A DNA stretch of 64,000 nt, taken from the NCBI RefSeq assembly GCF_964204865.1, contig NC_135263.1, positions 5,768,501 through 5,832,500 of the forward strand, in the 5' to 3' direction. The position numbers and the translations under genes are program-made. Below are positions 18,078-43,971 of the stretch, piece after piece; position 1 is the first letter of the stretch; each line of letters opens with the position of its first letter. Source of the DNA: Styela clava (Eukaryota; Chordata; Ascidiacea; Stolidobranchia; Styelidae). A model generated the notes under the pieces. The model was not told the origin of the DNA. It worked only from the letters and a program-made list of their open reading frames with translations, and made no database searches.

Positions 18078-21000
18078 CTAACAGCTGAAATAACAAGAAG
18101 ACGATTTGTCGAATACAGGATGGTCGCAAAAGTTTTTGCCTAAATTTCCTAATTTAGTTTCCAAAATCTCGTCCATCCAAAATTTTCGTTTCAAATTATT
18201 ATACTTGAAATCCATGTTTAAATCTCTCCATGAATATTTGCCGAGATTAAAATCTGCGTATTTATAACCAAAAATTTGTTCATTGTAATAACTTCTATGC
18301 AAAGTCCAAACTTTGTTCTTGCTTGTAGTGGTTTCAGGATTCATGCTTTTGTTGCAAAATGGTGCCAACGGCCACTCGAATGAATGTTTCTTTGGGTTTG
18401 AAATATTTACAGATACCTGTGTATGAATAATATGCAGATCAATTAATTGGCAATGTACTTGAATCTACACAAATATGAATGTGTGTACCTCCTCATTGGG
18501 AAAGTGTATTAGATAAATATACAAAATTTCCGGAAAACATTATAATAAATGTGTTCGACGGCAATTCCCTTCGTTAATGAATGTTTGTTTACGTAATCAC
18601 TCGACATATAGGCTAAGTCTGAATCTGAGATGGCGGCGACGCAGTTTTCGCGCGACTTATAGGTCAGTCCACGAATGCCGTACGAAACCTGAGATACTTT
18701 TTTACGCCAATCCTAACAAGACACTCAACGTTGTAGCCATGAATATATCTGGATGGATGAATATGCCAAGTTGTAATCGTGCGCTATCCAGTCCGTGTCC
18801 TTCAGTTTTTGTCGCATTTGGACTTTCGAATTACACCCTAATTATTAGGCATTGTTTTACTTGGCTGTTTTAGCATATTCCATATTTTTTGAGAAATATA
18901 GATTTTCACTACTGCAACTTCTTCGTTGGCAGGGGTTCATATGCGGCATTTTTGGTAGTCCCGAAGTATGTGAACCAAGGTAGCGGACACCGGAACGTAG
19001 TATGTGTACCAGGTTGGGCTTAGGCCTTAATTTTATTTCAATTTTTCTCATTTTAGCTTTATTACAAATTCGGGGACTAGCCAAGTGACTCCCATAGTAT
19101 TTGTAATTGGAATTATGGCCTAACTTGGGACACATGCATACGTTCCGGTGTCCGCCATCTTTGTTCACATACTTCGGGAGTACCGAATTTTTTGACTTGA
19201 CTATTCAGATGTTTTGCGTTTTTTATATATCAACTAGTAATTAGTGAATCTACATATACAAGTAAATAAAACCTGAATAAACATATACACACCGCCAAAA
19301 ACTGTGAAGTAACCCGACTCGAAGTCCAGTCTGACACCCGGGCATTTTTTTCTAGATGTCGTCTCATTGCAAACGTGCGATCCATTGCACTATGATGTAG
19401 CAAAAACGTCGGATCAAAAGCTGAGAAAGCAGTTGCAAGCATCCCATAGTCGCACCAGTTTTTGGGGTCCGTTATTCTGGGAGCTTTGTAACAAAAACAG
19501 TTGTGAATCTGAAATGGAATATTATATTGCAATTTGACGTGACTGGAACACATCTATTACCAAAAAATTTGATGTTAATAATTTCAATCTTATCAATTTA
19601 CAAAATTATGGACCAACATATTGAAATACGCTTCAGTATCCAACGTATATATAGGGTGTTCATAAAGTCTTAAAAAATTTTACAATTGCAAAGGGAATTT
19701 ATCGATATTATATATTGTTTAGGCCCTCACAGATGTATTAATTGAAGTAAAAATATTCAAACAATTACTATGGTCAAAAAAACGACAAACCTGGTCAATT
19801 TGTATTGAGAACTAAAATTAAAATTGTAAAGCGACATGTATGTACAAGTATTCCCATGCACAACTACATTTTTCAGTGCGTGTAGTTTGTATAAAATATC
19901 TGTACTTTCGAAGTAGGTGAACCAAGATGGCAGACACCGGAACGTCGAATGTGTACCAGGTTAGGGTTAGATCATAATTCTATCCCAATGATCCTTTCTT
20001 CAGTTCCATTACGAGTTCGGAAACTAGTCAAGTGACTCCCGTAGTAATTGTACTAGAAATAATGGCTTAACCCAACCTGGTACACACACTTCGTTCCGGT
20101 GCCCGCCATCTTGGTCCACATACTTCGGGGGTACCAAAATATCATCACCTGATCATGTGAATAAGACGAAATAATTCTATCAAAATGAGAGTAATCGTGA
20201 GACAAAAGAGCTCTGGTTGTTGCTCTTTGGAAAAAATTGTCCATTAATACCCCTGGATACCATATTCGACGCCGGGTATACCTGAGAAAGGAATTAGTTC
20301 ATATTATGGCTTGTGTGTAATGTGTATATAGTAATACTGCCTGGAACTAGGATTTGGACCCGTTAACTCTTGCTCAGTAAACAAGAAAATGTTCAGCAGC
20401 GAGAGCTATTTGCCAGCATCGCCCTCAGTCAAGTTTGGACATGTAGTCAAATCCAGATAATGGGAGTGGTGGGGTATTGTTTGAAGAGTTAGAAAAGAGT
20501 TAGACTTTACTATTATGGCATCGTAGGTTCACATCACCCATGGCAGTGGCCGACAAACCGCGTCACATGGGCCAAATTCGGACCACGGACAAGTTTCTTA
20601 TCGTCCCCGGAAAATTTTACTTTAAATGCATAAAACAAAATTCGCTCATTAAATTTATTATGTTTGTTGTAAGTAGCGTAAGCAAGAGCACATATCTGTT
20701 GTATGTCGATCACTTTACGAACGTGGACGTTTAAATTAACACAGGATTAGGAGTTGCGGTGTATAAAAATTTGAGACTAGTGTGGCTACTGTTTATAAGA
20801 AGAAAATAATGTTGCCCGCACTCTAACGTAGTGTGTATATTTGCCACAGTGGTACCCAAAGTTTGCCGACCACTGACCCAAGGTGTGATAAACTTGGTAA
20901 ACAATGCGGAACGGAAAAAATTACGTTCCTTTCATGACCAAGTAGGCACTCCCGCAGTGTGTGTGCCAGGTTAGGATTATGCTATAAAATTTAATTCGGA

Positions 21001-24000
21001 TTTTCATTATTTTAGTTATATTACGAGTTCCGGGACTGTCTGTGTTAGCCAAGTGAATATACCCTATGCCCATAGTCTTTCGTCCCTTTACACAACTTGA
21101 TATAAAGTAGGCGAACAAACTTAGTTACCTCCATATTAGTGAACACACACCTGGAGCGCCCAAAGTAACCCGTTACATATCAGTGATTGGAAAAAATATA
21201 AAAGACTGTCAGGTCTATGAACTGCTAACTCGTCATGATAAAAATATCTCAATTTTCAGAAGACTCACGTATGGTTTGTGCCAGGAATAAATGATCCATG
21301 GAATGGATTGTGAACGTACTTCTTTAGAATGGGATCATATATTTCAGGAAGACGAATTAGGTATGGTATATCAAGAGCTTTTTCAGTCCAATCCCAAAAC
21401 GGAATCCCGAGTGTTTTATTTTTCAAATATCTTTGAAGACCTATAAATGAAAATATCAAACATAAATAGCTATATGCGTGATTCGAAATGTTTCATCCCA
21501 TATAAATAAAAGCAACGTAGCTTAGCTTGCTACTGAACATGCTGGAATGTGTGTCTCCAGTAGGACTTTAACCACGGGTAAAACTAACCGGTTACCCGTC
21601 ACCACTCCCCTAAAATGTCGACTATGCTAATATCCCGGAGACAGAATGCGCATTTGTTAAATAACATTAAATAGGCGCTCTTGGAACAAAATCGTGAAAA
21701 TTTTATTCCGGCCGGAAAACATTTCTGAACTTGATGTTGTCAAATTTTCATAATCAGCAACACCAGTACTTCAATTATTCATTCACATTTACTTGATGTT
21801 TACAAATTGAATTAGTGATATCCTTTTGAATTAAACGACACGGAAGATGCTTTTTTGATGACCTAATCATTTTTGAAGTAATTGTAAAAACAAAAGGAGA
21901 TTATCACTTGAAATGTCAGTCAACGGTCAAGTAAAATCGTAACCGTTAACCATCTAAAAGTTGGTTAATTAACCGATTAACCTTTCCCAGCCCTAGTCAC
22001 CAGTACTAATAAAAAGTCTAACGTTCCTCCACTAAGTATATATATGGTATATGCGCCACTTTCTGGATATTCCAAGCCAATTATATTCAAGTTAGGAACT
22101 GGAAGTGTTTGTCTCAGAATAGGGAATATAAAAAATAACTGAAAACCCGTAAACAAAATTATTATATTTTCATTGAAAAGCAGGGGGCCACGGAGTGATG
22201 AAAGTCTTTGGAAGGCCTCTCCAGAAAGTTTGAGAATCACTGCGCTAATCGATCCTCGCAGTTTCGGGGGAAATTACACAACTAGAATGACACAGATGCG
22301 CGGAACTTACGAATGACGAAAGCGCGGTGACAGTCGAATATTGGAGTGGATTCACAATAGCCATCCCTGGCCCATCTAGAGACGTTATAATCTTACTGTA
22401 GCTTGAAAGGCAAGCACAACTCACCCAGTTCAAACTGTACGATTATCATTCTGTGCCACGGTAAGAATAACGGGTGATGATGCCAACTACAGTGACCATC
22501 CTCGTGATCTTTATACATCTTGTACCAGGGGCAACGTCCAGGCCATCCATGCCATGATGCGATGTTCTGAAAAGAACAACCAAAGAAAAATCCGAATTTA
22601 ACGAATTAAAAAATTAGCTTTCAGTCTTTTTTTCCTAATGAATGAAAATACATTTATTGAAATTTTTTATGTAGATCAGTGGTTTCCCCTCCGCCTATTT
22701 TGGAACTCTTTATTCCTCCCCCACCCCAAAAAAGTTTTTATTTATTCATCGGTACTTGGTTAGTGTTATGCTTAAATCGCACACCTGTATTATGGTAATA
22801 ATAATAAATAAGTAAAGAATAGTTGCAGTACTACAGCAAATACGACAAAATTTCTTCCCAGTTGGGAAACGTGAATTTAGATAATTACCTAAATAATAAA
22901 TTAATACGAGTGAATTGGGTTATACATAGGTCAATCAAGGGGTCACTCAAACATGCTTCGTACCATATATCCTTTCTTTGACTTGTCCTTTTTGAACTTA
23001 GTCATTGCTTGAATCAAGTCATGCGTGTCCTCGTTCGTGAGATGACGAACATTCTTTCTGATTCGGAACTCTGATACATGAAATTAATACCGTGAACATG
23101 ACATTAGCAATAGTTATTTCGGTACTCCCGTAGTATGTGTACCATGTTAGGGTTAGGTCATAATTTTATACCAATAGGTTTCAGTCCCTTTACACAACTC
23201 GATGTGAAGTAGGCGAACAAATTAGTTACGTCCATATTGGTACACACACTTCTGAAGCGCCGTTTTTTTGGTTCTGGTCACGCTATTTGAAAAACAATAC
23301 AAGATCAAGTACCAAGTCTATGAACAAAAAAGTTTTTTGCGAAAAGAGCGAACAAAAATGGGCAAAATTAATTTGAATCATTGTACTACACTACGACTAC
23401 GACTGGGTTCGCCACTTGTCAACACTTACAATACGATTTGGCAGCATTATAGTCTTAGCAACAAAATGATTTATACTTTTCCTATGACAGGTTTTCTGTT
23501 TTGATCTTAAACATCATTTCTTTAGTAAAATTACAATTTCACAATATTTGCCATAAAGATAGGCAAGGCTGAAAGAATGTCGTTAGTCGCTTGCTTTTCT
23601 ATCAATGTCAATTACGGTGCGAATCTGGAAACCGTTACAGAGATTGACTTTCATATGTTGCAACTAATGCACAACGACATCGTTTTGTGTCGTATTTCTG
23701 GTGCAAAACAAAACCGAAAATGGCAAATTGTAAGACGATTGTTTATAGTTAAATGTCAGTGATTTTAAATAAATTACTACCTTCAGTAACCGATGAGCAA
23801 GTTCTCGACATGCTCCCTCTCCCAGCACAAGACCCTGCTGCTTCTCGTCCTCGTGATTTACATATTCGCTCTCTCGTTTGTAATCCTCCCCATTTCGTTT
23901 TTATACATTCACTCCAACGACTCCATATTGACCAAGATGCTAAAAAGAGTTGAATAAACTAGGTTTTATATTGGAATTCGTGGAATCGTGATGCCTTCCG

Positions 24001-26016
24001 TCGATGGAATTAAAAGGAAACGTTTTTTCGCTGGACACGGAATAGACCTTTGGATCATTTTGTTAAATTGTTTCTGTTGTTGTTTGTATTCCTCTTCTCG
24101 TTGTGGTAGAAAAAAATCTCTTTCTCATTAACTATCACTTTTATTCATTTTAAAAATTTCTATGAGCTTTATAAGATTCGTTTTCCACTTCGAAGTTTTA
24201 TGTGATGACATCATCAAAATGAACAATTGCGCGCCGTTTGGCGGATCCGCGATCGGAATTTTTTTATTTCGAAAACTACTGGAAAATATTTGATACTACT
24301 TCGTTTTGGTTTTCGTGCTCATATTTTTCATCATTTTTTTCTTATTTCAGAATAAATGATACTTAAATTTTTAGAGTTTTATTTTCTCTTGTTTTTGTTA
24401 AAAATCAAATTAGAATACATTTACCTCTATGACATTCTGTGGATCCAACAAGTAAGTAATTTTTCGAACAAAAACACTCACAGCATCCATGTTTCCTATG
24501 AATCTTGTAGTGATCGCAGTCAGTGGAACATGCCAGTAAATCTTAAACAATATAGCAAATAGCAATAATAGTGAACAAAGGAGACTGATCTCAGAGATGA
24601 GTAAACCCTAAATGCTAAAAGCTACTTACTGATCCTGTAAAGCAGAGTTGCAAAAAGAAACTCTGGGTTGGGAGTTGCAAAAGAAATCTTCGGTGCCCCC
24701 GAAGTACGTGCACCAAGATGGCGCACAACCCAATAACCATAACCTGGTACACCCACTATGTTCAGGTTGTGCGCCATCTTGGTGCTCATACTTCGGGTGC
24801 ACCGAATTTTTTTCGACACTGACTTATGTTGAAACAAAATATTGATCAAATTCGGACTATACTGAGACCCACCATCACCAAAATGGAGCCAAGATTCAAT
24901 CTTTTGTGCGAAAATATTCAAGCACATCGGTTTTATTAAAGGATTTGTCAATTTTATTTATATATTTTCTGTATTATATATTAAATTTTACTTTAATTTT
25001 ACCAATTGCGTCGTGATGAAAAATTGCTGAAGAATGCTGCTGTAAATCATCATGGTATAGAAATGGCGCAAATTTTAAAGCATTTCATGTCGATACGATC
25101 AGAAAAACAGCTAATAGCTATATAGCAGACATGGGCAAAGTACGGCCCGTGGGTCAATTCCGGCTGGATGGGTAATTCAATCTGGCCCGCCTGATGCCGC
25201 CACAACCAAGCTGAAATCAAATTTTGATGTTTGAGCTAAAAATAGTTCGGGGAATCTGTTGAGATTGTGGTTAAATTTAATTTTCGCACGAAGCATATTG
25301 TTTTCCATTTTTGCTTTGTAACACTGTAAATATTGTTCATAAAATGTAATTTTTTACGTCACACTTACATGGCCCGTCAGAATAGGTGGGAAAAATTTTT
25401 GACTCCTGGTCCAAAAACTTGCCCACCCTTACTACATAGTGAACTCCACATAACCAAATGCTGTGGAAAATCTATAGTAATGAATTTTAGAAAACGTTTA
25501 CAAATTGAAGGACGGTTAGTGAAAGGGCCTCGTTATTTTGAGTAATGGAAATTGACGCTCACTCTTTTCACTGCATCGTTCTTCTTGGCGTAGAACTTGT
25601 AAATACGACCAAGGTGTTTTCTGCATGCTATCCATCCAGTCTTGATCATCGTCTTCATTTGGAGGTTGTAGTATCATAGACTCTAGAATAAAGTTATATA
25701 TACTTGAAATAATTTTGTATGATTGATTAAAATTTTAAGAAAATTTGTTTGAAGGGTAATTCAAATCAAGCATTAAAATCACGGCTTCAAACCCTAATTA
25801 GGATGTTAAAAGGTGTTAATTTGCTCGTTTTTTTTTCGGAAATCTATAATCTTGTAAAAAATCATTTTTTTTTTATTACTCACCGGGGCTACGAGTTTCA
25901 GACCTTACTCCTGGGGATACTTGATACGAAAACTCTCCACGAACACTTACAAAAGCAAAAATAAGAGAAATGACAAAAGCCAAGCACATCCTCCGACTTT
26001 TCAATGGTTTGTCCAT
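18078..26016 (-). CDS. Secreted type-3 copper protein with TSP1 module (copy 2)
   Basis: Ten exons on the minus strand, all joining in phase: 26016-25884, 25682-25563, 24541-24425, 23939-23781, 23070-22964, 22566-22425, 21440-21269, 20281-20149, 19508-19293 and 18416-18078 (TAG). They encode about 545 residues. Order: signal peptide (hydrophobic LAFVISLIFAFVSV), a linker exon, a Cys-rich exon (CDHYKIHRKHGCCECFC), a thrombospondin type-1 module (WSIWSRWSEC), then the copper domain. CuA ligands are His in WHGWPG and in CSWHHHPLFLPWHR. CuB ligands are the two His of HDQIH and the HH of LLHHSAMDR. All six are present, so the protein should bind two coppers and oxygen. Family knowledge: tyrosinases oxidise phenols to quinones and molluscan haemocyanins carry oxygen. 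The trait GIPFWDWT and 'VQFE' resemble the latter group. ATGs at 26088 and 25989 are alternative starts. The gene is intact, not a pseudogene. It faces its paralogue at 35862-43971 head to head. Confidence 0.85.
18954..19184. mobile_element. Palindromic MITE, type A, copy A1
   Basis: Left end GGTAGTCCCGAAGTATGTGA is mirrored by the right end TTCACATACTTCGGGAGTACC. Inner words GACACCGGAACG and CGTTCCGGTGTCCGCC are also mirrored. It lies in the last intron of copper gene copy 2. Confidence 0.8.
19902..20135. mobile_element. Palindromic MITE, type A, copy A2
   Basis: Left end GTACTTTCGAAGTAGGTGAA and right end CACATACTTCGGGGGTACC are mirrored. Same family as A1. Its right edge is about a dozen bases from the 5' splice site that follows exon 20281-20149 of copper gene copy 2. 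Confidence 0.8.
20945..21160. mobile_element. Palindromic MITE, type C, copy C2
   Basis: Starts GGCACTCCCGCAGTGTGTGT and ends ACACACACCTGGAGCGCC, with the type C inner strings TACGAGTTCCGGGACTGTCT and CACAACTTGATATAAAGTAG. It lies in an intron of copper gene copy 2. Confidence 0.78.
23121..23261. mobile_element. Palindromic MITE, type C, copy C3 (internally deleted)
   Basis: Starts GGTACTCCCGTAGTATGTGT, keeps the GTTAGGGTTAGG core, then jumps to the TTTCAGTCCCTTTACACAAC half. It lacks the middle 'ACGAGTTCGGGGACTG' part seen in other type C copies. Confidence 0.75.
24691..24803. mobile_element. Palindromic MITE, type B, copy B2
   Basis: CACCAAGATGGCGCACAACC at the left is mirrored by GGTTGTGCGCCATCTTGGTG at the right, giving an almost perfect hairpin. 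It lies in the second intron of copper gene copy 2. Confidence 0.8.
25126..25431. mobile_element. Non-autonomous hAT element (306 bp)
   Basis: Ends CAGACATGGGCAAAGT and ACTTGCCCACCCTTA are inverted. Flanks CTATATAG (25118-25125) and CTACATAG (25432-25439) differ at one base, fitting an aged 8-bp duplication. It has 'CGGCCCGTGGG' and 'TGGCCCGCC' words. It lies in the second intron of copper gene copy 2. Confidence 0.75.
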
Positions 26017-26090
26017 TGAAATAAATTTATACTGATATATACTAAGTAAGAGAAAGACAACAACGTACTTCAGCATTGACAAAGACATTT

Positions 26091-26165
26091 TGGTACTCCG
26101 GTAGTATATAGACTAGGTTAGGGTTAGGTCATAATTTTATTTCGATTTTCCTTATTTTAGTTCTT
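26091..26165. mobile_element. Truncated type C MITE, copy C7
   Basis: Keeps only the left third (GGTACTCCGGTAGTATATAG, then GGTTAGGGTTAGGTCATAAT) and breaks off after TTATTTTAGTTCTT. It starts just upstream of the first exon of copper gene copy 2. Confidence 0.65.
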
Positions 26166-27039
26166 GGATGTGATTCATCATATCATGATACTGGCATACG
26201 TGAATCAAAAGTTTTGCTGCACAGTAACACAAGTATATTTCATGTAACGTTTCGTCTGACCAAGGGAAGATTTCTTCAGTCATACATAGTTCAAATAATA
26301 CTGGCAATTGCGTTTTGTGTAATGTTTCGCAGACTGTATGACATTCTCTAATAACTGACGTGCGTATAGCAATCAAAGACAAATACTCAGCTGAAATGAC
26401 GCAATTATGGCATTGATTCTCGTGTGTCGTGTAATCTCAATGATTTTTGTTGGAACCGAATTTTATGACAATGTCTCTATGCGATTGAGATCACGTCAAG
26501 CAAGAGAGATACCACAGTGACACCGATTTTTGAATCGAAGCTATTGTAAGCCACCCTCGCATTTTACTCTCATGCAACACACATTGCACAATACAGCAAC
26601 GGCGCAACCCTGAGTACATGCATCTACAAGACCGAGAAGACATTACAAACAGAACTTTACCAGATTCAACATATTAATATAAAAAATGCAACTTTGCTGA
26701 ATACCATGGGCATTATGACGTGGTGTTGCCTCATCGATATATCATTATGCCATGTATTTACATACAGAATTTTAGCTATTGTTTTGCCTGTTATGTATTG
26801 TAAGCATATTTGACAAAACAATAGCGCTTAAAGAAGTCATGAATTTGGATGTATTCAGATTGCAAGAATCAGCTGATCTCGTACCAATATGCGAAAGTTG
26901 GCATCTTGAATAACTAGTAGAACATAACTATTTATTCCGAATTTGAATTTTGTATTGTAAATTTTCTGATAGGACTCAAATCACGTCAGTTCTGCTTAGG
27001 TATGTGATCCTAGCATCATGAAACAACTTTGGTACGTGT

Positions 27040-30004
27040 ATAGCGACACTTAGGTCCGGGTCGCGTCGACCATTGATTGGTCGAGTGACGCATTCCGATT
27101 TTTGAAGCGTTTTTCTTGATTGACAATCGACTAGGGATCTCTCAAATACTTAAAAATATCTCAGATCTTTCTCGGTCTAGTATGCTACAACGATCGATTG
27201 TGAAGGATTGCGCGGCTTTTAAAACCACTGCATGATCTAGCTTCACAGGGTAAGAACAAGCGACAGTCACTCAAATGGACGCCTATAACACTGCAATAAT
27301 TCGAAAGGATAAAATCAGATCCAGCTTCTGAAATAATGCCTGTCCATCCATACTGCAACTCTCTCTTTAGTAATCGACGTCAGCTGAGTGGCAATGGGAG
27401 CCGTCCTTCAGAAATGTGTTGGCGGCGAATGGTCATCTCCAGAATTATTTTCAAAATTACTCAATTTAACACAAAGCAACTACTCCGGTATTTGATTGCG
27501 AACTCTTAGCAGCCAGACGTCATTTTAGCATACAGCTAAAAGATCAAAAATTTGAACTTGTGAAAGATAAAGATGCTTTAGGTAAAGCCATAAAAAAACC
27601 TACTGAAAGATTTATTTCTAGACAGGCACGTCATTTGAAGTAATTTCCGAATATACTGATGACGTCAGACATTTGAAAGTCTGACTTAATACTGTCACTG
27701 ACACATTATCTTGTATTCAAATGAATTCAATTCATCCAAGCATTAACGTCGATAGCTTTTTTCAGCCTCCACAGTCAATTTCTTTGCATGAACTTCATGC
27801 CGCTCAAAGGAACAATCAAAAACTGATGGAATACAGGGATCTCAAAAATCCCATTCTCTCGAATTAGTAGATGTTCCATTCGCAAAACTAAGCGTTAGCT
27901 TAGCATTCGATACATCAGCAGCCAATAGATTAACGCCATTTGTACCCGAATCTTTACGCAAGAAACTCTTTGACAACATTCAGAGTTTAGCACATCCTGG
28001 TGCCAAAGGCTCAACTGATTTGATTTCATCACACTACCAGGGTTGCCAGATCCCAGTGATCAAAATAGCCAAATCAAGACGAAAAAAAAAGCCAGAAAAA
28101 GCAAACAAAAGCCCCATGATTTGATGCCCTCAGCACAGTAATGTCTTTTCCCATTGAAAGTTGTATTTTCGGTTGCTATCATGGCGATTTCCATTTTAGC
28201 GGGATGAAGGGTTTAAAAGTATAAAGGATTAATTGAATGGCAGCACCAGAATCTACATTCGACATAATACAGTTAAGCTGACATCTATATGAAAAAGTTA
28301 AAAAAAAATATCAAGCGGATAGCATTATTCAACAATTCAATATATACACAAGGTTCAGTATGTGATATACCTTAAAACATTCTCTCTAAACATTTTGAAA
28401 CCATCATTTTTATTACAAAAATAAACTAACCACGTGTCGCTTACAGGTGGACTACTGATAGCTAATTTTAGTTAATGACATCGTTCGTGAGACTAAAACT
28501 AAACTAAAGCCCATGGGAAGACATAATGAGTTTAATGACAATTAAGTTATACAACTATTTTTTGGAAACGGAACTAAAAACTGACAAATAACAGTCAAAG
28601 CTAAAAACGAGGCAATATTTACAACCCTGCTTGAACATCTGTCTGAGCAGCTGCAGAAACTGCAATTATTTCTGATTGGTTATGGTTAAGCGTTAAGGCA
28701 ATAGACAAGGAAATCGAAGCTCGGGGAAATCCAAATGTTAAGTAGCTTAATAAGCAATAGGCTATTGTCACACACTAAATATTGTATTTCATATGATTTT
28801 AATAATAGACAATAATAATAATAGAAGAGACTTAAAAAAGCTAAAAAGCCAAACGAAATTCTGACGCCAAAGGTGTTTGAACAAAGCCAAAAATGGCAAA
28901 TTTGGCGTTAAAAAAGACAATATGGCAACCCTGCACACTACGTGTGGCCCAGAATGGCTAAAACATTAGGCAATGGGTTTGTGAATGCGCTAAACGCCAG
29001 CGTTCAAAAGTGCAACGTCATACCCAGATGACAAATATCAATGTCCCATGCGATAGATTCAACACCGTCAATGTTTATATATTAGATCCCCTTGGTTTGA
29101 GCATAGAATATAACTACATTCTGATGTGTGTAGATCGTTCTCCGCGTTGGTTAGAATGCATCCCATTGTCCAATATTTCCGACAAGTTTTGCCAATGGAT
29201 TTGCATTTGGCTGGATATCATATTTTGGAGCACCAAGAAGGACCAAGACAGATTGTGGGAAATATTTCAAGTGCAAGCTTTGGGCAGATCCAATGATTTT
29301 CATTAGGCGCAGACCATTCTAGAACTCTTCCTTAGTCGCCGCATATGAATAGTTTATAGTCAAACGCGCCAATCGCATATTAAAAAATGCTCTTTGCGCT
29401 ATGGAAAATCCTGAAGACTTGTATGACAATTTAGGATTTATGTTAACAAGATGCGCCGATTTTTTTAACAAACTACACAATGTGCCGACCCGAGAGCAGC
29501 CTCCTAAACAGTTATGCAACACACGTCTATATTCGTGTTGATTCTACAAGGAGAGCACTTCAACCCGTCTATATTGGACCAAATAGAGTTATTTCAAGGC
29601 CCAATAAGTATTTTACGATCGAATTCAAAGGAAATCCTTACGAGTTACGACGTATCAACCGATCGCCTGAAACCGGCTTTTCTTATCTTTTGTGACTTCA
29701 AGACTCCCCCAGCTGTCAAATTTCACCCTTCTCCAATGGAACCGCAGTCAAAACCTGATAGCGACATAAATAAAATAAATAGCGACACCTAGGTCCGGGT
29801 CGCGTCTCCCGTTGTTTGATAGTGTGACGCGTTACGATTTCGGGGCGTTTTCTTGTGACACGCACCTCAACTGCAACAGAAATCTTCTGCCTCAAACTAA
29901 GTCTTTTACTGGCATACTTACTTTTACTGAAACTTTTATATTTTACTGTTATCGTTTTACACTGAAGAATCTAATACACAACCAAGATTTTACTCGTTTT
30001 AACT
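27040..30004 (+). mobile_element. Broken Ty3/gypsy-like LTR retrotransposon
   Basis: Two diverged direct repeats, about 27040-27225 and 29780-30004, share TAGCGACAC.TAGGTCCGGG and look like LTRs. Between them, on the plus strand and in several broken frames, are relics of the end of pol. They include an RNase H-like piece (AARRHF, 27500-27640), an integrase zinc-finger-like piece (about 27935-28030), a core-like piece (CVDRSPRWLECIPLS, 29128-29175) and a C-terminal piece (VDSTRRALQPVYIGP, 29537-29583; DRLKPAFL). Gag, protease and reverse transcriptase are missing. An 896-bp hAT element splits the integrase region. The copy is clearly dead. Confidence 0.75.
28038..28933. mobile_element. Nested non-autonomous hAT element (896 bp)
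   Basis: Ends CAGGGTTGCCA and TGGCAACCCTG are perfect 11-bp inverted repeats, flanked by an exact 8-bp duplication CACACTAC (28030-28037 and 28934-28941). The inside is AT-rich with 'AAAAGCCAAA' words and no long frame. It interrupts the integrase relic of the gypsy-like element, so it is the younger of the two. Confidence 0.9.
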
Positions 30005-30309
30005 AGAGGGTTGGGAGCGGATAGTGGAAGCCCAGTCTCGGCGCTCACGGAGTCATAGGAAAATACTACCACTAACACGGATTAGCTGCATGCAAACGTG
30101 ACTTACAATCAATAATGTATTATGCTATCACAGAACAAGAACCCACTATCCGTTTTATGTGGATCTTAGAACAGTGATACTTCCGGTACAAAAGGTGTGT
30201 TTATAAGCTTAGTCATGCCGAAATTAGATTGTCAAGGGTTTATACTTATAGTATGTGTTAAATAATAATGTTACGATTCAATGAGACGCAATTGCATGCA
30301 ATCCATACT

Positions 30310-30520
30310 AGACTAGACCGGCTCGGCGGTGTGGCTCATCGTGCTAAGCGTTAGGAATACGCCCGCCACCGCATCTCTGATTGCCCCTCCCCCGGGGTTA
30401 ATATGTGAGTCCGAGACTGAAATCAATACGCAAATCGTTGGACTTTAACAAAGAGAATTTGTATAATACCCGGTGGAACTGGTGTAAGATAATAACCTAC
30501 GTGGATCTTCTCGTAATGGA
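30310..30520 (+). mobile_element. tRNA-like SINE candidate
   Basis: The segment GGCTCGGCGGTGTGGCTCAT, then CGTGCTAAGCGTTAGGAATA, resembles the start of a tRNA gene with an A-box. It is followed by a C-rich loop and a weak B-box-like region before GTGAGTCCGAGACTG. A T-rich run and an unrelated body follow. It is not a functional tRNA because the arms do not pair cleanly. I know of no second copy in this window, so this is tentative. Confidence 0.4.
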
Positions 30521-30798
30521 ATCACGATAAAATTATTTTTTTTTTATCTCACGATTGTTCGAAAGAAATTCGAACGCGTTCTCTTTTGTATCGAACCCAC
30601 TATCAGCGGGTTTCCTCATTTCAGAAAATGCTACACGCATAAATTACATAAACTTACAACACTTTCGGAACGACAAATATTGTTAGCCACGGTGAACGTT
30701 ACCCATTTGCTGTGGTCGCTTGAAACAATTAACAATGGGGTTCGCTAGAATCCACTCAATCTCACCACTGCTAACTATGCGCATTTAGGCATTTTTTC

Positions 30799-33044: not shown

Positions 33045-33259
33045 CGGCGCTCCAGATTTGGTATACCAATACGGAGGTAAATAATTTTGTTCGCCTACTT
33101 TACATCAAGTTGCGTAAAGGGACTGAAGCCTATGGAAAGGGGGTATATTCATTTGGCTAACACAGACAGTCCCCGAACTCGTAATAGAACTAAAATAAGA
33201 AAAATCGGAATGAAATTATGGCCTCACCCTAACCTGGTACACACATTACGGGAGTACCC
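33045..33259. mobile_element. Palindromic MITE, type C, copy C5 (reverse orientation)
   Basis: Starts CGGCGCTCCAGATTTGGTAT and ends ACACATTACGGGAGTACC, with TTTACATCAAGTTGCGTAAA and CCCCGAACTCGTAATAGAAC inside. Confidence 0.78.
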
Positions 33260-34130
33260 AGTTCTGAATATTTTATATCATTATTATCCATTTCTGCCGT
33301 CAATTGTTATTTTATTATTAGGTAAACAATTATTAGAATCCGATTCGGAAGTAAAACTACTTCGTTCTTTTCTACATTTCGTATTTTAAATTGAATGCGT
33401 TTAATTTATGCCGATGTTTTTTATTTATTCATCCTGTTGAATATGTCTGCGAGTTTTGATAATCTAGTTTCGATTTTTTTCATTTCGTTAATTTATGTTT
33501 CACTGAAACTTCGCTTAGTTTGGCTAAAATGTAAACCCGTAGTTCCCCGCCTAGCCTATTTTGGAACCTTTCAATCCTCCGTCAGTATACAGAAAGTAAC
33601 CTATACTTTGTTTATTCAATCTTCAATAAATCCTTATCTAATGTCCTTATCAAGAGTGCAGGTGGCACTTCCTCTTTTGTACAGTTTAAGTAGTGTATAA
33701 TATACATAATATCATGATTATAAAAAAAAAACTGTAGAATATTAGTATTGCTATGGCAAATGCAAAGCAAAATCAAGATTCAAGAACGACGAAATTATTT
33801 TCGGTTGGAAAATGTTGATCTGAAATCTAGAATATTTTTATACAAGCTTTGATATTATAACCCACCAACACTATGCTTGTAATCTAGTACAATCCGACTC
33901 TTCCGGCATTGCATATTTTTTAGATGCTCAAACATGTTGGATTTAGGAATTATCAAATAATAAATCAGAGTGATAAAATAATAATAAACAGTTTTATAGT
34001 AAATACAACAAATACATTTGAAGCTTCCGTGATTAAAATCCAAACGTCCAATGAGATATCGTTTCTACTCAGTAGCGTAGCCAGGCCCAAATTACGAGTT
34101 TTTTTTCAACATTTCTTGCGATTTTCGCTC

Positions 34131-34323
34131 CTAACCCACGTACATTTGAACCCATGTGTATATCCGCGGGTTCAATCTATACGCGGGTGCTAAAAACCCA
34201 TGGGTTAGGGTTAGTATGGGTTCAAATATCCGTAAAACAAAACAAAAAAATTCCATAGGTGCAATAGTATGCAGGGGCAATTGTCGTGGGTTCAAATGTA
34301 CGTGGGTCAAATGTAATGGAACC
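34131..34323. repeat. Dispersed repeat, TTTGAACCCACG family, copy 2
   Basis: TAACCCACGTACATTTGAAC at the left and GTTCAAATGTACGTGGGTC near the right end are inverted. The inner CCATAGGTGCAATAGTATGC matches copy 1 at 6118-6215. It also carries CCCATGGGTTAGGGTTAG. Confidence 0.7.
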
Positions 34324-35861
34324 GGATTTCACAACTCACTTGCGGATTTCCGACGAAAACACGAATCTGCACACGCTTCGATAAATACCTAAGTGGTGTT
34401 TCTCGCGAGTTCTCACACCGAGGAATAATTTTTTTTTCTGTTTGGTGTCAATGGTGGCAACCCAAATTTTCTAAATTGAAAAGCGGCAATACAAAATACT
34501 AAAAATAAAAACGAAGAACACCATAAATTTTGTTTTATGATGGTCCGCGATCGATTAAAAACGCTTTTTCGACATTGCAAATCGCAAAATTCTGGATGCT
34601 ACCGTACCGGGGCATTTTCCCTTAGGATTCTTTGCTTCACTGCCGCCACATTGGTATACGTACAGTACTGCCGTAGGGGTTGTACGAACAGCTCAGATTT
34701 GACGAATTCACAAAAATACGAATCAAAACAAAATATAATCGGACACTTTACCACGCATTTTTGTGTCCACGGATTGTCATCGTATTTTCTGAGTAGTATT
34801 GCTTTTATTTCGTCAACACAACCGCAGATTAAAATGATCACAATAAAATTAATAATTAACCATGGCGATGAATATGCATTTTTGATTTACTAATATACTT
34901 TAAATATATTTTTAATAAGTACTAAATCAAGTTGAACTTTCTAAAAATTTATAGCAGATAGTAGGATTTTTCTAACGGCGATAACAAATTAGCAAGATCG
35001 CAAAAAATATGTATCAAAACTAAGTATAATCGGACAATATATTCTCACATTATTATGTTCACAGATTGCCATTGTATTTTTTGTATTTTAGAGAAGTAAT
35101 GCTTTCATCTTGTCGTAATTCGACGCAACCGCGAATTATCATGAACACAATTAAGTTAAAATAGAAATACATCTTAAATTCTCGTCGTTGTCATGGATTG
35201 AATATTGTGCGACAGAAAAGGCCATTGTTGAAATTCGTTAAAATTCTGTTGTGTTCGGTTTTATTGCCTGTTCACACAGAGTATACGGTTGCAATAAACG
35301 CACTATGAGTCCGCAAAGGGTTTCGCCGGTGAGAAAATAATCAGCGATCAAAAAAGGTTGGGAAACGCTGGTCTAGCTAGACATACTCTTCCGTAAGTAG
35401 AAGTAGCTTCCTTTTAAACTTTGGGAATCGCTCCATCTGGAGAGATGACTCAGACAGGATTTATGAGGTAACGTTCATTATATCCTGTGCATGACAACGG
35501 CAAATGAAGCGAAAGTTAGGAATGAAGGATGAGTTATCGTGCGCTTTTTGATAAGCCAAAGTAAGAATTGCGGCGCGGTACATTCTAAGATTCGGCTTCA
35601 ATGGTGGTTGTAATGCTTTTGCAAAGCGGTGGGATATTTTTAGCATAAAGCAAAGCAAAAGTTACGGTTACCTGTGCGAAAAAATCAATATCAGGCTATT
35701 GAAAATTTGATTAGCGTATAGTAGTTTATCAACTACCTGATTATACAGATATACATTTAACATACCGAGTTTTTCACATAATTATATTTATTGTATTGAG
35801 TTTAAATGGCCCGTTTTCTTGTGTAGTTTATTTAATTAAGTTGGAAATTAATAATACAACA

Positions 35862-38800
35862 ATGAAGTTAGTCTTGCTTCTGGTTTTCGTCTCGAGAATT
35901 GCATTCGGCTGGACCAAATTTGATATGGAACAATTTGTATCAACTGATCGTCGGGGCTCTGGTGAGTCGAAGCAATCGTTTTTTTTTTTATGTAACTCTG
36001 CTACATCGGTTACGGTGGGTGTAGACAATTTTTTGTGGGGGCGGAAAGCTACTCAAAAATGATCATCTTTGTTAGATTTGTCATTCCCCGCCATATATTG
36101 GATATTTACATTTCTTAATTTGTTTAGAGATTGCGATTCAATCCTCGTATTTTCAACGTGTTTTTGAGTAAAACATACTTTCGCCTTACTATCTGTTATT
36201 TGTAGCTTATTGTTATCTAGTTATTTTTGGCGTGGGCGCGAGACCTGAAAAATTCTAAAAATGGGGCGCTGCCTAAAATAAAGTTTGAGAACCACAGGGC
36301 TAGAGAATTTTAGAGCAATAGTACATGTGGTCTGATGTATTTCAAACTTTCTAAAAAATTTTATTCAGAACCTATGATTCTACGACCACCAGAGGAAGAC
36401 AACAATGGGATTGTCAACGATAATCAAAAAACATTTTGGTCTTATAAAGAAGCGCTATACCACGGAACAAGATGTCGCGAAATGAGTGAGAAATTTATTA
36501 TTTTGTTTGTCTGAGATGAAAGTATAAGCTAGAAGAGCCGATAAAACGACTCAATCATCTCGCAAGCTGTTTCTCTATAGATTACGAGCCAATGTCGGGA
36601 ATGGGAATGGTTAGATAGGTTTTCGTTTCAGATACATGGATTTTGATTTCTCATATCAAAACATATTTATTCCGTGGGTTCCATTTAACAGGGCTTCATG
36701 TCCTTGGAAGTTCATGGATCATAATTTCATATGTACGTTCCTGTGCGCGTAACGAAACTGCGTAATTGTTTACATATTAGGTTGGCATAATACTTTTTTC
36801 ATACATCTGTTGTCGTTTTATTTAGTATTTTATTTTATTTTTAAAATCAGAAATTACCAAAAATCGGTCTCGATTATAAAGAAACCTGAATATACAAAAA
36901 AATAACAGATCACAAAAATACACATAAATCGTAGAATGTTAGATTGATCTGATCAATTAAATATCAATTATCACTTACTTAACAAGGTTTGTTAAATCAA
37001 ATAAAAGAATTTTTGTTTTGTTTCATGCGTGAATCTGGAGCTAAAAAATCTTGATATGACCAAAAGTTTGCTTTTGCGAATTCAGTAAGAAATAACTTTA
37101 ATTGTAAATGTGGAATAATACTTAAAGTATATTTTTTATCCTAATTTAGATTTACTGAGTTGTTCAGTTGATTGCGATCACCATAAGATATATAAAGAGC
37201 ATGGATGTTGCAAATGTGTTTGTTCAAAAAATTATGCTCTCTTTGGCTCCACGGAATGTCACATAGGTAGGCTGGAATAAAATTTTGGGTTCTCCCGTAG
37301 TATTTGTGCCAGGTTAGGGTTAGGCCATAATTTTATTCCGACTTTCTTTATTTTAGTTCTATTACGAGTTCGAGGACTGTTTGTGTTAGCCAAGTGAATA
37401 TAACCCCTGCCCACAGCTTTCAGTGCCTTTACACAACTTGATGTAAAGAAGGCGAACAAAATTAGTTGCCTTCCATGTTGGTACACACACTTCTGGAGTT
37501 TAGTAAAAACAAGTTTTAGGTTGATAATTTTTGTTCTCTTATCTAAACAAACGATACATTGAAGTCGCTTCTTGCATTGTTGATTCAGCATCTTGGTCAA
37601 AATGGAGTCGTTGGAGTAAATGTATAAAATCTAAATGGGGAGGATTGCAAATGAGGGAAAGAATATGCAAATCACGCGGTAAGAAAACACCAGCCGTTTG
37701 CGAGGGAAGAGGAAGCATTTCGAGGACTTGTGCACCTATTACAGGAGGTGAAAGACTTTTTCCATGACCCATTAAAAATCGCGATAAAAAAATTTCGTGT
37801 TTAATCACAAAAACCTAGAAAATATTCAAATAGAAAGATATAGGTTTGAAATAATATTTGTTTGTATATCCATAATGATTTATAAAAATTTATAACACCC
37901 ATCAGAAGGAAAATATTCCGGGCGCTGAATGTCATTTGTCTGTCGTCTTTATTACTTGAAACTCATAGTATTTTACATCTACGTAAACATAGTAGGTTGT
38001 GTTTACGAAGCGTTTAAAAAGAAGTTTTGTTGCCACTTGATACGCGATATCACCGTGATTTCAATCGAATACCAACAGTCATGACGCATTGGTTTGCTTT
38101 TAATTTTATAAGTCATTCTCATAGAATTCAGTTCCTAACCCGAACTAAAATCACTTAGATCACACAACCGATGAGATGAGATCCCATACCAAAAAATAAG
38201 CCTTAAATTTTTTTCTCAGGGGAAATTCTAAATAAATATCGAACTTTACAATTTTGTCGTGTGGGATAATTTCGATTCTTAATAAACTGTTTATATTAGG
38301 GTTGTACTCGTGTTTGTATCTTAATGAGAACGTGCTTGTTCAGAGTTTCGAATCAGAAAGAATGTTCGTCATCTCACGGACGAGGAAATGCATGACTTGA
38401 TTCAAGCGATGACTAAGTTAAAAGCTGATAAATCAAAGAAGGGATTTCTGGTATGTATTGTATAAAGGTAATATCACAAGGTTGAAAATGTCGCAAAAAC
38501 ATCAATACATCGCAGGTTAAAATGTCGGGTTTAAATCCAACGCACCCAGTGTGCGAGAATTTGACAATTTCGACCGTACAAACTATGGTGGTCTTGAAAA
38601 TTTGGAAATTATTAAATATATGCATGTGGTGCCGGTTTCAAAAAGCGTCACGTTTTTTTGTCATTGTATTGGGTTATCGTAATTTGGTACAAAGCCCTCG
38701 CCACTGATGCAAAAATGTGAGATCTCAGAAAAGGACCCCGCTACTTTTCAAATAACAAATTGGTAATTAGCCCGTTTGGGGTTAAGAATGATTTGAAATT

Positions 38801-41800
38801 TTGAATTTTTGTAATCTGCATTCCTAACCCAAACTGGTTAATTACCAATCTCTTTTCAGCGTTGAGAGGTGTGTTTATTGCGGGGAACGTTGTACAAAAG
38901 ATCCCATATTTTTACGAACTCATGGAATCCCACACAAGCATATTTATTTACTCGGTTCTCGGATTCAAGTCCCATGCCCCACCTCACCCAGGGTGTAATA
39001 AATTGGATACAATGTAAAAAAAAACATGAGGTTTACTGGATGAACATGTAAAACTCAGCATTTTTATTCTGTTATCAACATTAACAAAAAAGTTCAAGTG
39101 AATTTCCCCTCAGCTTAGTTGCGACGTGCGTACTTTCACGTCCTTCCAATATCCTGTTTCACTCTATCAGATGCGTCAAGTCAGGAAGACGAAATATTAT
39201 ATACCTCCAAACTATACCATGCATGTAAAGTATGAAACACTATTTTTACCGTTTTGACTATTTTTATTAAGTTTTTAGTTCGCCCAAGGTATCTGTTGTG
39301 ACAATATATATATATATATATATATATATGTTGAGATGGAATTCTCGCGAGTCGCGATGATACCCCGCCTTGCCCCTAACCACCTTTTCAGATGGCCATA
39401 AATGTAGTAGCATAGCATAACTTTTTCTGTGATAATTACGGTTGTCACCGACAATAACAGTAGTTTAGAAACTAATTTTTCTCTTTTATTAAATATTTGA
39501 ATCTTGGGTGTCTCTGCTCGATAACCAATTTTGCCTCCCCGCGTCTTCCATTTTCAGTAGAATTGTGTGGTTATCATTTTTCTCCGTATTTTCTGGAATA
39601 AAGAATTTTTTCACTGGTTGGACAAAAAAACTTGGCTCGAATATAACCAAAGCCACTTATTCATTTTCGAAGCGTTGGCACAATGCCTAAACTTTCCGCC
39701 CTCACACTATTATAAGGCTGGCATTGTTAAGGTCTTTGTAAATGCTTGCTAATCGCCTTCTATTTTACTGGGCAGAATATCGCATCGTGGCATGGTTTCC
39801 CTGGACGTTGCCCATGGTACAAGATGTATAAAGAACACGACGATGGTCACTGTAGCTGGCATCATCATCCTTTATTCTTACCTTGGCACAGACTGATAAC
39901 TGTACAGTTTGAAATGAGTAAGTTACTTCAAACACAGCAATATTGATATTCAAATTCACCATCTAGTTCAATGATACATTGGATCATATAATTCGTGCGA
40001 GCAATTCTAAACCCTTAGCGTTGCAAATTCAATACCTGCGTACAATTTATTATCTATGTCTATGGTGTTACAATTCCCTAACTCCTAACAGATAGCTTGT
40101 GCGAATCGAACAACGCGTGTCATAAGATCAATCACCAAAATTATTGTGCCTGCGACTACTGGAAAGCCTATGTTAAATAAAGGTGCGGCCCGCGGTTTCA
40201 CCCAGGTATTTGTATCTGGCCCTCCTGTATTAAAGGTTGCACGTCACTAATGCAATGTGTTATCATAAACTACACCAATCACAAAAAATTGAAACATTCG
40301 AATCGGAACACCTGAAAGTTTTATGGGGAATGTCAGAAAACATACTTATATGATTACATTATCCTCGTGTATTTGATTTTATCTTTACATAGTATAATAT
40401 ATACAATGATATAAATTTTCGAATTTGAATTCAAACTTGCAGAACCGCTGACTTGGACTTCAGTTTCTCTTTGTCTGACATATTTATTGTATAAAACAGT
40501 ATTATTGTCTGGTTACATGCAAAATTTACAGTTTGTCTTTGTCTGACATATTTATTGTATAAAACAGTATTCATTGTCTGGTTACATGCAAAATTTATAC
40601 ATTAGTCATTTAATGGAAGCACACGAAGTGAGCCTATATGTCGAGTAATATGCACTGGATTCTTTTTTAAATTTTCAGATTAAATCATGATGGGATAGGT
40701 TACAAACTGAGATTCAAACTGTTGAATAAAAAAAATATTGAAATATATTTATTTAGGTCTTCAACGATATTTGAAAAATAAAACTCTCGGAATACCATTC
40801 TGGGATTGGACTGAAAAAGCTCTTGACATACCATACCTGATTCGTCTTCCTGAAATATATGATCCCATTCTGAAGAAATATGTTCACAATCCATTTCATC
40901 AAACCCATATACTAGCTCTAAATCAAACGTGAGTTAATTATTTTTCACCTTTCATTTTATTTTGATAATACATCTTCTACCTGTTTGTTGTCGTCGTGTA
41001 TTTATTTGTGTCATAGCCTGCTATTTTTCCAACGGTTATACTGTGGTTATGATGTCATAATTGCTCCGTGCTTTTTTTACCGGCCTGCGTGCTTGCTATT
41101 GCTTCCTGTGTTTTAGATTTTACTTCATTAAGCTGCGTTTTACTAACCTTTTACTTTGCCGTATGATGAACTGTATATTTCTTTCAAATAGGGATTTTGT
41201 AATACTGAAATTTTTTTAGGCTTCAACTAGTACAACTAATTTATTGCCGAGAGCCTTTTGTGTTTCAAGCAAGGTTTTCATAGCTGCCAATTTACATAAA
41301 CATTTTGTACTTTAAAACCTATAAACCATTTTTGAGAATATCATGTCGTTTAGATAAAAGCACTTGTGTATTTAATATTAATGGCGTTAGAACAGATTTA
41401 ATAATACCGTTATAATTCAGGCACACGAGGCGTCGGATATGGTATCCAGGCGTTTTAATGGAACACTTCTTCCAAAAAGCAACAACACGTGCACTTTTAT
41501 CTCATCATTATTACCATTTTGATTCAATTATTTCTACTTATTCTCATGACCAGGTGAGAAAATCTACTTTTATCATAAACGGTTGTTTACACCAAATATT
41601 CTCAAAAAAAATTTAGGACCTCCTGAGATATGCGCACCAAGATGGCGCACAACCTGAACTCAGGTTGTGTATCAGGTTAGGGTTCAGGTTACGACATCTT
41701 GGTGCGCGTGCTTCCGGAGTAACAGAATTTATTTCAACAGACCTTATGGCACGCCGAAGGAATGACGCATACATGTAGTAATTTTTTCCCCTTTTCATTG

Positions 41801-43971
41801 TTAAATTACTAATTCAATGCCGAGCTATTCTAAAACAGCTGGACACAAAGCTGGTATCAATCCAATCAGTATTTTTACCGGATTTGTTTAGTAAATCTGT
41901 AGTAAAATATTACGAAAATGGTTTTGTTTTAAATCATGTAGTATTTATCAAATACCTAATATTTGTGTATTAATATCTATAGATACTATAGTAGGCTACT
42001 TCTATTTTCAAAAACGACTAGACGTTACTGTTGTTGTTTTTTATTAAAGCTGTGTGCTTCCACGACTTCTAATCTACAAACTTGATTTCGTAATTCTTGA
42101 AGTTGTGTTGTTGTTTGTCGTATACTCTGTCTATATATTTCGAAAGAAGCACAGCTCCGCCTGATCACTTTGAATCAATGGCTTACAACCTTTTAAGCAC
42201 ATTTCTCCTTTTGCGTTTTTGTAACTCTTTATTTGCCTTTTTGAACGAAAAATGGATATTTTCACGTCACTACACTTACACATTCTGTTTCCGTTTAATG
42301 GATCTTAAACTAGCTATTCTTGAAACATTTTATATACGAAATATATACTAATATATTCATTTAGATTCATAACTGCTTCTGCTACGATCCACCACGAAAA
42401 ACTGACCCAGCTGGATGGTGTAACATAGGAATGCCCACAACAACGTTCGCCTCGTACGACCCAGCGTTCATGCTTCACCATAGCGCCATGGACCGCGTAC
42501 TTGTCATGAGAAGACACTTAGAAGAGGATGCGGGTGTTACTGATTGGACTTCTAGTCGGATAATTTCAGCGTATCCGGAAGTATGAAAAATTTGTATTAT
42601 TTTTTTGGGGCCCCCGAAGTATGCGAACCAAGATGGCGGACATCGGAATGTAATATGTGTACTAGGTTAAGGTTAGGCCATAATTTTAGGTATAAATACT
42701 ACGTGAGGCTCTTGGCTAGTCTTCGAACTGATAATAGGACCAAAATAAGGAAAATTGGAGAAAAATTATCGCCTAACCCTAACCTGTTACCCATGTTACG
42801 TTCCGATGTCCGCCATCTTGGTTCGCATACTTCGGGAGCACCCTTTTTTCATGATTTCAGAATATAAAGATGTATTCATATTTGTTTTTATATTTGTCTA
42901 CTTTAGTATATTCTGATAAAGAGTGAATTTAAATTTATCCCAATCATCGACACAGTCAGATTTATAGTACATCAGGAAACATAAATATAGACTTCTGTCA
43001 TTTGAGGAGTCTAATTTGATTTCGAGATACGACATAAAAATACCTATAATATCAATTTATTCGTACTTTGAAACTCGTTGCAACCTAGGATAATACGAAA
43101 GCACTGAAACAACCAATTGGTAATTTTTTACCATAATAAAATTTGGAACGTCAATTTGCCTTGCTGTGGTAATTGTCAGCGACTTCAAAATTGTAGACTT
43201 TTGACAGCTTCACGTCAATTACCGTATTTCATTTATATCAGAAAATATGTTCTTTAGCAGGGATTCTCAAACTCTTGATGTTACGAAGCCCGTGAAGAGC
43301 TTGACTATTATTTACAGAGCCTCATATAAAACTATCTATTGGAATTTATAGATAATGTCATATAATAATTACCGTCTTCTTGCCACATTTTGACGCTACC
43401 GTTGTCAGATTTTATTAATGCCGTTAAAGCTTTTTAGCTCACGAAGCCCCTGGGTTTCTCTTATAGCCCTAGTAGCGCTCCGCATGGAGCACGTTAAGAA
43501 TGTTTTTTGGTATACAGTTATTACTACACCTCTTCATTCACTATGTTAAATACATCGTGGATATTTTATTGCTGATTAGTCAATTTTATTTTTCATGCAA
43601 TTTCCTATAATTGTCGTATCTTTATGATTTAGGTATATCACGACTACTCCAACCCGATGAAACATTCATTCGAGTGGCCGTTGGCGCCATTTTGCAACAA
43701 AAGCATGAATCCTGAAGCCACCACAAGCAAGAACAAAGTTTGGACTTTGCATAGAAGTTATTACAATGAACAACTTTTTGGTTATAAATACGCAGATTTG
43801 AATCTCGGTGATTATAATTGGGAAGATTTGAAAAAAGATTTCAAGTACAATAATTTACACAGGCAATATTGGAATGATGAAGTTTTCGATACACAAATCG
43901 GACGTCTAGGTGAAAATTTCTGCTCTCACCCCTCTTACAGCAAGAATTCCGCGTGTTATTTTAGTTGCTAG
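35862..43971 (+). CDS. Secreted type-3 copper protein with TSP1 module (copy 1)
   Basis: Ten exons, all joining in phase and giving 533 residues: 35862-35961, 36369-36485, 37150-37266, 37589-37747, 38344-38450, 39776-39917, 40757-40928, 41421-41553, 42365-42580 and 43633-43971 (TAG). Residues 1-16 are a signal peptide (MKLVLLLVFVSRIAFG). About 34-112 is a linker plus a Cys-rich exon (CDHHKIYKEHGCCKCVC). About 112-165 is a thrombospondin type-1 module (WSKWSRWSKC). From about 166 comes the type-3 copper domain. CuA His are 206, 229 and 238 (WHGFPG; CSWHHHPLFLPWHR). CuB His are 347 and 351 (HDQIH) and 387 (MLHHSAMDR). GIPFWDWT follows CuA, as in molluscan haemocyanins and related tyrosinases. 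The likely role is an extracellular phenoloxidase (defence, tunic or cuticle hardening, or pigment), but oxygen transport cannot be excluded. The first four introns are all phase 1, so the N-terminal modules are exchangeable cassettes. It ends in a Cys-rich tail (SACYFSC). Confidence 0.87.
37287..37499. mobile_element. Palindromic MITE, type C, copy C6
   Basis: Starts GGGTTCTCCCGTAGTATTTG with CCAGGTTAGGGTTAGGCC, then ATTACGAGTTCGAGGACTG and CACAACTTGATGTAAAGAAG. It lies in the intron before the TSP1 exon of copper gene copy 1 and begins about 20 bp after the donor site at 37267. Confidence 0.8.
39305..39329. repeat. (TA)n microsatellite
   Basis: About twelve TA units, in an intron of copper gene copy 1. 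Confidence 0.9.
40462..40600. repeat. Two-copy tandem repeat (about 68 bp unit)
   Basis: CTTTGTCTGACATATTTATT and the following ATAAAACAGTATT...GGTTACATGCAAAATTTA occur twice in a row with few differences. It is intronic and non-coding. Confidence 0.9.
41616..41722. mobile_element. Palindromic MITE, type B, copy B3
   Basis: GCACCAAGATGGCGCACAAC at the left is mirrored by CATCTTGGTGCGCGTGCTTC at the right. It contains CAGGTTAGGGTTCAGGTT. It lies about 60 bp after a donor site in copper gene copy 1. Confidence 0.75.
42607..42843. mobile_element. Palindromic MITE, type A, copy A3
   Basis: CCCCGAAGTATGCGAACCAA at the left is mirrored by TTGGTTCGCATACTTCGGGA at the right. CATCGGAATG and CGTTCCGATG are mirrored inside. 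It lies in the last intron of copper gene copy 1, the same intron as A1 in the paralogue but at a different position. Confidence 0.82.

Follow-up and report, generated by a model that had tools for sequence, protein, structure and literature searches.

The stretch of DNA analysed here, the window, comprises 64,000 nucleotides (nt) at C18:5768501-5832500 of a genome assembly of 376.6 Mb in 379 contigs. It holds two ten-exon genes on opposite strands, each of which is predicted to encode a secreted protein that joins a thrombospondin type 1 (TSP1) repeat to an alpha-type tyrosinase domain. The minus gene lies at 18078..26016 (-) and the plus gene at 35862..43971 (+), both as joined exon models, and these models bear out the original prediction, made from the letters of the sequence, that two such genes stand head to head round a spacer of about 9.8 kb. 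Self-comparison of the translated frames of the window also returned exon matches on opposite strands.

The exons of the minus gene, from high to low position, are 26016-25884, 25682-25563, 24541-24425, 23939-23781 and 23070-22964 (exons 1-5), followed by 22566-22425, 21440-21269, 20281-20149, 19508-19293 and 18416-18078 (exons 6-10). Their lengths are 133, 120, 117, 159, 107, 142, 172, 133, 216 and 339 nt, and the protein has 545 amino acids when read from the ATG at 26016; this is one of three in-frame ATGs, the others at 25989 and 26088 giving a first exon of 106 and 205 nt respectively. The exons of the plus gene are 35862-35961, 36369-36485, 37150-37266, 37589-37747 and 38344-38450 (exons 1-5), then 39776-39917, 40757-40928, 41421-41553, 42365-42580 and 43633-43971 (exons 6-10), with lengths of 100, 117, 117, 159, 107, 142, 172, 133, 216 and 339 nt and a protein of 533 amino acids. 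Lengths are thus equal in eight of the ten exons, the second exon being 3 nt longer in the minus gene (120 nt) than in its partner (117 nt), intron phases are 1,1,1,1,0,1,2,0,0 in both, and all 18 introns are bounded by GT and AG. Internal exons were located by the lengths given in the prediction, each being flanked by AG and GT with its frame open, and a purpose-written protein-to-genome spliced aligner, given nothing but the minus protein, placed the internal boundaries of the plus gene's exons where the model has them. The shared lengths, the small difference at exon 2 and the equal phases that had been claimed for the pair therefore stand. Exons 2, 3 and 4 are all of phase 1-1 and divisible by three in both genes, so that skipping or shuffling any one of them would preserve the frame.

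Domains and copper site of the encoded proteins

Each protein would begin with a signal peptide and a short linker; a cysteine-rich module, the TSP1 repeat and a binuclear type-3 copper domain would follow in this order, and the chain would end in a short C-terminal tail. The N terminus is hydrophobic in both by hydropathy scan. The cysteine-rich module, which Pfam does not recognise, is carried by exon 3 (24425..24541 in the minus gene, 37150..37266 in the plus gene; phase 1-1), and the TSP1 repeat by the 159-nt exon 4 (23781..23939 and 37589..37747; phase 1-1). Exons 5-9 encode the type-3 copper core, with the motifs SWHG, CSWH and PWHR at the first copper site (CuA) and, at the second (CuB), HDQIH and LLHHSAMDR in the minus gene (19293..23070) or HDQIH and MLHHSAMDR in the plus gene (38344..42580). 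Pfam finds one tyrosinase stretch in each protein, with scores of 67.6 and 76.0 bits (E 2.7e-18 and 7.2e-21; cut-off 22.6), and its TSP_1 family in the expected place at 19.3 and 21.5 bits (E 0.0013 and 0.00028; cut-off 21.6). Searched against solved structures, which was done for the minus protein only, that protein matches thrombospondin-1 at E 5e-7, and the closest structures in the PDB are units of mollusc hemocyanin. No EGF family was found in either protein by Pfam up to E 1, the cysteine-rich exon occupying that position, nor did Pfam recognise in them a beta-sandwich (cupredoxin-like) family, the domain that comes after the copper domain in mollusc hemocyanin.

The claim that both genes keep all six copper-binding histidines is confirmed by alignment and by the motifs, which give six of six in each. 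The ligands are spaced H2(8)H3 at CuA and H1(3)H2 at CuB, a Phe stands four residues before H3 at both sites, and an Asp stands four residues after H3 of CuB. PMC3658974 gives this combination as the rule for type-3 copper proteins of the alpha and gamma subclasses, and it holds for both window proteins and for a third paralog described below; the spacing fits the gamma subclass too, and the Phe and Asp are common to all subclasses.

Relatives in the genome and the tunicate family

The third paralog, located by a protein search, lies 4.8 Mb away from the window genes, at about C18:10.6252-10.6289 Mb. Over exons 3-10 it is identical to the window proteins at 248/440 and 242/440 residues (55-56%). 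It has exons of 117, 159, 107 and 142 nt as in the pair, the acceptor of the 117-nt exon 3 having been picked by eye, and the next three measure 178, 127 and 213 nt against 172, 133 and 216. Five TSP1-tyrosinase genes lie on C10 at 16.859-16.932 Mb; L031, the one of the five on which Pfam was run, scores 25.3 bits for TSP_1, above the cut-off. A candidate on C5 has its TSP1 part partly recovered. Such counts of tyrosinase genes are minima: the window pair itself was absent from the 16 exon matches that a six-frame Pfam search returned, and no workable gene model came from its matches on C6 (1.55 and 1.56 Mb).

A tree was built from 11 rows, two of them hemocyanin units and the other nine gene models from this genome; it is unrooted between the C18 group and the C10/C5 group. 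The window genes are sisters (96/97), the three C18 genes group together with the third paralog outside the pair (97/97), and the C10 genes with that of C5 form a separate group (97/98). Lacking a root between the groups, the tree is silent on whether TSP1 joined the tyrosinase once or twice. The three C18 genes and L031, L032 and L033 of C10 have a TSP1 exon of 159 nt (the models of L034 and L035 differ or are unclear), and the presence of this length in both groups favours a single joining.

At the second CuA histidine all three C18 genes read CSWH, so that the Cys-x-His (CxH) motif is missing, and their CuB site opens with HDQIH. CxH is present in four of the five C10 genes and in the C5 gene, the fifth C10 gene, L034, being without that histidine. 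The four ligand-keeping C10 genes and C5 have one extra residue between H2 and H3, and their CuB site reads HGGAH, HGAPH or HGGPH in the C10 genes and HNTIH in C5. A cysteine two residues before the second CuA histidine is bonded to it in hemocyanins (PMC3658974) and is reported for Tuphoxin, a tunicate protein discussed below (PMC9395347). Judged from sequence, CxH would mean a Cys-His bond and CSWH none.

The C10 cluster itself contains a second, much younger head-to-head TSP1-tyrosinase pair. L031 (C10:16858988-16861366, -) and L032 (16880120-16882666, +) diverge with their TSP1 exons about 19 kb apart; their copper domains are identical at 236 of 240 residues, and across the 8.4-8.5 kb common to the compared loci, five pieces of their DNA, introns included, are 79-93% alike. 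L034 (C10:16912000-16921900, -) has WQR for WHR, FIHS for LHHS and no HxxxH at CuB, and is likely a relative without copper.

Three other loci were seen in passing. On C9, two divergent tyrosinase genes (8970826-8971978, -, and 8976362-8977515, +) look by eye to be of another kind (SHEGPAFLTWHR). L001 (C3:6426341-6427099, +) differs from its intron-rich relatives in that its tyrosinase domain sits in one open frame of 690 codons. At C2:17.864-17.921 Mb, about 57 kb of one strand carry several dozen TSP1-like matches, which may belong to a very large TSP1 protein or to a gene cluster.

Among animals, cellulose synthase joined to a GH6 domain is known as a mark of tunicates. The genome contains a GH6 domain (35.4 bits in Pfam). 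Within about 3 kb of one strand, a GH6 frame (42.4 bits) is preceded, some 2 kb upstream, by a separate frame for cellulose synthase (PF03552 28.3 bits; glycosyltransferase PF13632 60.9 bits). A cellulose-synthase frame ahead of a GH6 frame makes it very probable that the genome is that of a tunicate. No match to COX1 was found in the assembly. The same two frames led to the rejection of a trematode eggshell tyrosinase, which GC content, repeats and the known tyrosinases of flatworms had brought into consideration.

Given a tunicate genome, the window genes are, on sequence grounds, members of the tunicate TSP1-alpha-tyrosinase family, that is, Tuphoxin in the wide sense (PMC9395347). Tuphoxin is described as a putative secreted phenol oxidase of morula blood cells that combines TSP1 with an alpha tyrosinase; the joining of the two is called a tunicate innovation, with two tunicate clades, and two Tuphoxin gene lineages were present in 8 of 11 species (PMC9395347). 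In the literature searched, the name occurs in this one paper. Like Tuphoxin, the window proteins are very probably those of a tunicate, predicted to be secreted, with an alpha-type tyrosinase and TSP1, and related to mollusc hemocyanin. The TSP1 repeat is on exon 4 in Ciona ('hemocyanin' XM_026835721.1) and was possibly skipped in one Halocynthia transcript (PMC9395347), and it is likewise on exon 4 in both window genes. Both Tuphoxin and XM_026835721.1 were compared by published description.

Some points weigh against this assignment. The TSP1 scores fall slightly under the Pfam cut-off in both window proteins, and that of the third paralog is lower still at 14.6 bits. The EGF_CA domains reported ahead of TSP1 in the Tuphoxin of S. 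canopus are not recognised in them. The Cys-x-His motif that is reported for Tuphoxin and hemocyanins is missing, the sequence being CSWH. Finally, the tunicate argument leans in part on the specificity of a cellulose synthase-GH6 joining to tunicates among animals and is made here from two separate frames. Unlike Tuphoxin as described in PMC9395347, the window genes lack the cysteine that bonds to the CuA histidine, recognisable EGF_CA domains and a recognisable cupredoxin-like tail, and their products of 533 and 545 amino acids stand against a calculated 103 kDa for the mature S. canopus protein. The same paper notes that prediction of the cupredoxin-like domain is difficult and that one of the two tunicate clades is without it. 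By eye the C10 genes, with their EGF-like frames and CxH, look nearer to Tuphoxin than the window genes do.

History of the pair

The window proteins are identical at 372 of 533 aligned residues (70%), rising to 79% in the copper domain. The protein and codon alignment proposed with the original prediction gave nonsynonymous (dN) and synonymous (dS) divergences over 533 codons of 0.198 and 1.11 by NG86 (dN/dS about 0.18) and of 0.189 and 1.60 by YN00; over exons 3-10 the NG86 values are 0.150 and 1.08. Identity of 70%, a dN near 0.20 and a dS above 1 indicate an old, constrained duplication. An inverted duplication with two constrained frames, as had been suggested, is thus supported by the identity, the dN/dS ratio, the tree and the copper sites, and comparison of the two sequences shows the common descent of the pair; the duplication would have taken place on C18, with inversion. 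The match of exon lengths lies far beyond chance, which the exon search and the spliced alignment rule out, yet it is expected of duplicated genes, since the third paralog keeps several of the lengths too. A duplicate created in assembly is also ruled out, as the copies are only 70% identical and seven of the nine introns give no alignment between them; the matches in introns 8 and 9 fall in sequence that recurs elsewhere in both genes. Between the left and right outer flanks in the window nothing over 120 nt matched at E 1e-10, so that no inverted repeat extending past the genes was seen.

Silent divergence is unevenly spread along the pair. As per-exon dS is often saturated, identity at silent-informative codons was used in its place: it is 207/322 overall and differs between exons (chi-square p 0.0005), with 13/39 in exon 9. 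A stretch of exon 10 (18243..18389 in the minus gene, partner stretch 43660..43806 in the plus gene) is identical at 142 of 147 nt, and its silent-informative codons agree at 41/43 against 166/279 outside. The pair may have swapped short coding stretches by gene conversion, which is compatible with an old inverted duplication and which we weigh at a little below an even chance as the cause of the near-identity in exon 10 and in exons 5-7. The permutation test on the best fragment gave p 0.0002, 0.0005 and 0.0014 at three mismatch penalties, and an identical run of 51 nt was matched in 9 of 5000 shuffles, both of which speak for it. So do exons 5-7, where silent codons of the pair agree at 84/111 against 123/211 elsewhere and where the third paralog is not raised towards either copy (40/89 against 72/139, and 40/86 against 53/136). 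In the exon-10 stretch, however, the third paralog is raised as well (20/28 and 20/27 inside, 92/200 and 73/195 outside), so that constraint at the level of codons could explain part of the silent identity there. Against conversion, too, stand the seven introns without alignment and the confinement of the matches in introns 8 and 9 to recurring sequence, and the two stretches were chosen from the data before the inside/outside comparisons were made.

A further scheme would make the C18 lineage, with a copper-site signature of its own (CSWH lacking the Cys-His bond, and HDQIH at CuB), a separate subclass of TSP1 phenol oxidase in which conversion holds selected exons of the pair alike and the rest diverges into two enzymes. 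We regard this fuller scheme as doubtful.

Spacer, control and proposed function

Between the start codons lies a spacer of 9,845 nt (26017..35861, with the minus start at 26016), or of 9,872 nt if the minus gene starts at the ATG at 25989. A genome search revealed nested dispersed repeats at 27143..29775, where an outer element (about 27143-28037 and 28934-29775) has a repeat of about 0.9 kb within it; together they take up about 2.6 kb of the spacer, and at least 94 matching pieces occur genome-wide, the window's own included, with 40 of 1251 candidates scored. A dispersed repeat of about 220 nt is present in two copies (30793..31012 and 33040..33263) and has relatives within introns of the genes. 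On either side of the nested element, at 27040 and 29779, stands a direct repeat of 82-86 nt (window 27040-29860).

The original prediction held that the pair might have shared or divided regulation. Sharing found no support: when the 2 kb upstream of one gene were compared with those of the other, no similarity was detected (best E 0.49). Since repeats fill part of the 9.8-kb spacer and the upstream regions are unlike, the two promoters are, as judged from the sequence, most likely separate. A single bidirectional control region in the spacer that co-regulates the pair would account for the retention of the head-to-head order despite the age of the copies, but it would have to act across 9.8 kb, some 2.6 kb of it nested dispersed repeats, and between dissimilar upstream regions, and a plain inverted duplication gives the same order, as in the younger C10 pair; we think it improbable. 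With unlike upstream regions and unmatched outer flanks, we read the head-to-head order as a trace of the inverted duplication. This order was not found for TSP1-tyrosinase genes in the literature searched, most subscription papers being outside the search, and PMC9395347 nowhere uses the term 'head-to-head'.

Just past the plus gene, an AAA-M41 protease (Pfam PF00004 and PF01434), which we take to be YME1L/FtsH-like, is encoded in one uninterrupted frame of 715 codons (46072-48219, -). Searches of the window found no Rfam family and no tRNA. Of eight frames given to Pfam together, four had one or more families, and four window frames, two of them in the spacer repeats, had none up to E 0.01.

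Taken together, the data make it quite probable that the window genes code for secreted phenol oxidases of the alpha type in a tunicate, derived from an old inverted duplication. The prediction that two functional enzymes were kept holds for the constrained frames and the complete copper sites; function itself is read from the sequence. The copper pair would bind O2 and oxidise phenols to quinones; these might cross-link matrix proteins in the tunic or take part in defence by blood cells, and the TSP1 repeat might hold the enzyme to the matrix, as has been proposed for Tuphoxin.

It is possible to see the window genes instead as oxygen carriers, the urochordate 'hemocyanins'. Mollusc hemocyanin units are the best solved relatives by sequence and share the H2(8)H3 and H1(3)H2 spacing, and urochordate alpha proteins are termed hemocyanins in PMC3658974. 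Unlike mollusc hemocyanin, however, each protein has a single copper unit and an added TSP1 module, with no CxH and no beta-sandwich family found by Pfam, and we give this alternative little credence. Degeneration or catalytic death of one copy, for which the loss of copper ligands in L034 provides a precedent within the family, is most improbable given six of six histidines, open frames and intact splice sites (18/18) in both genes and the low dN/dS.

Hardening of the tunic and the arming of ascidian blood cells are roles ascribed to phenol oxidases. The pair, as a phenol oxidase duplication, is an addition to an already described tunicate family and is more ordinary than surprising, though its copper-site variant merits testing. 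There are two groups of TSP1-tyrosinase genes on different chromosomes, each with a head-to-head pair, and thus duplicates of differing age. Such duplicates are suited to asking how copies divide labour between them, and whether loss of the Cys-His bond alters the enzyme.

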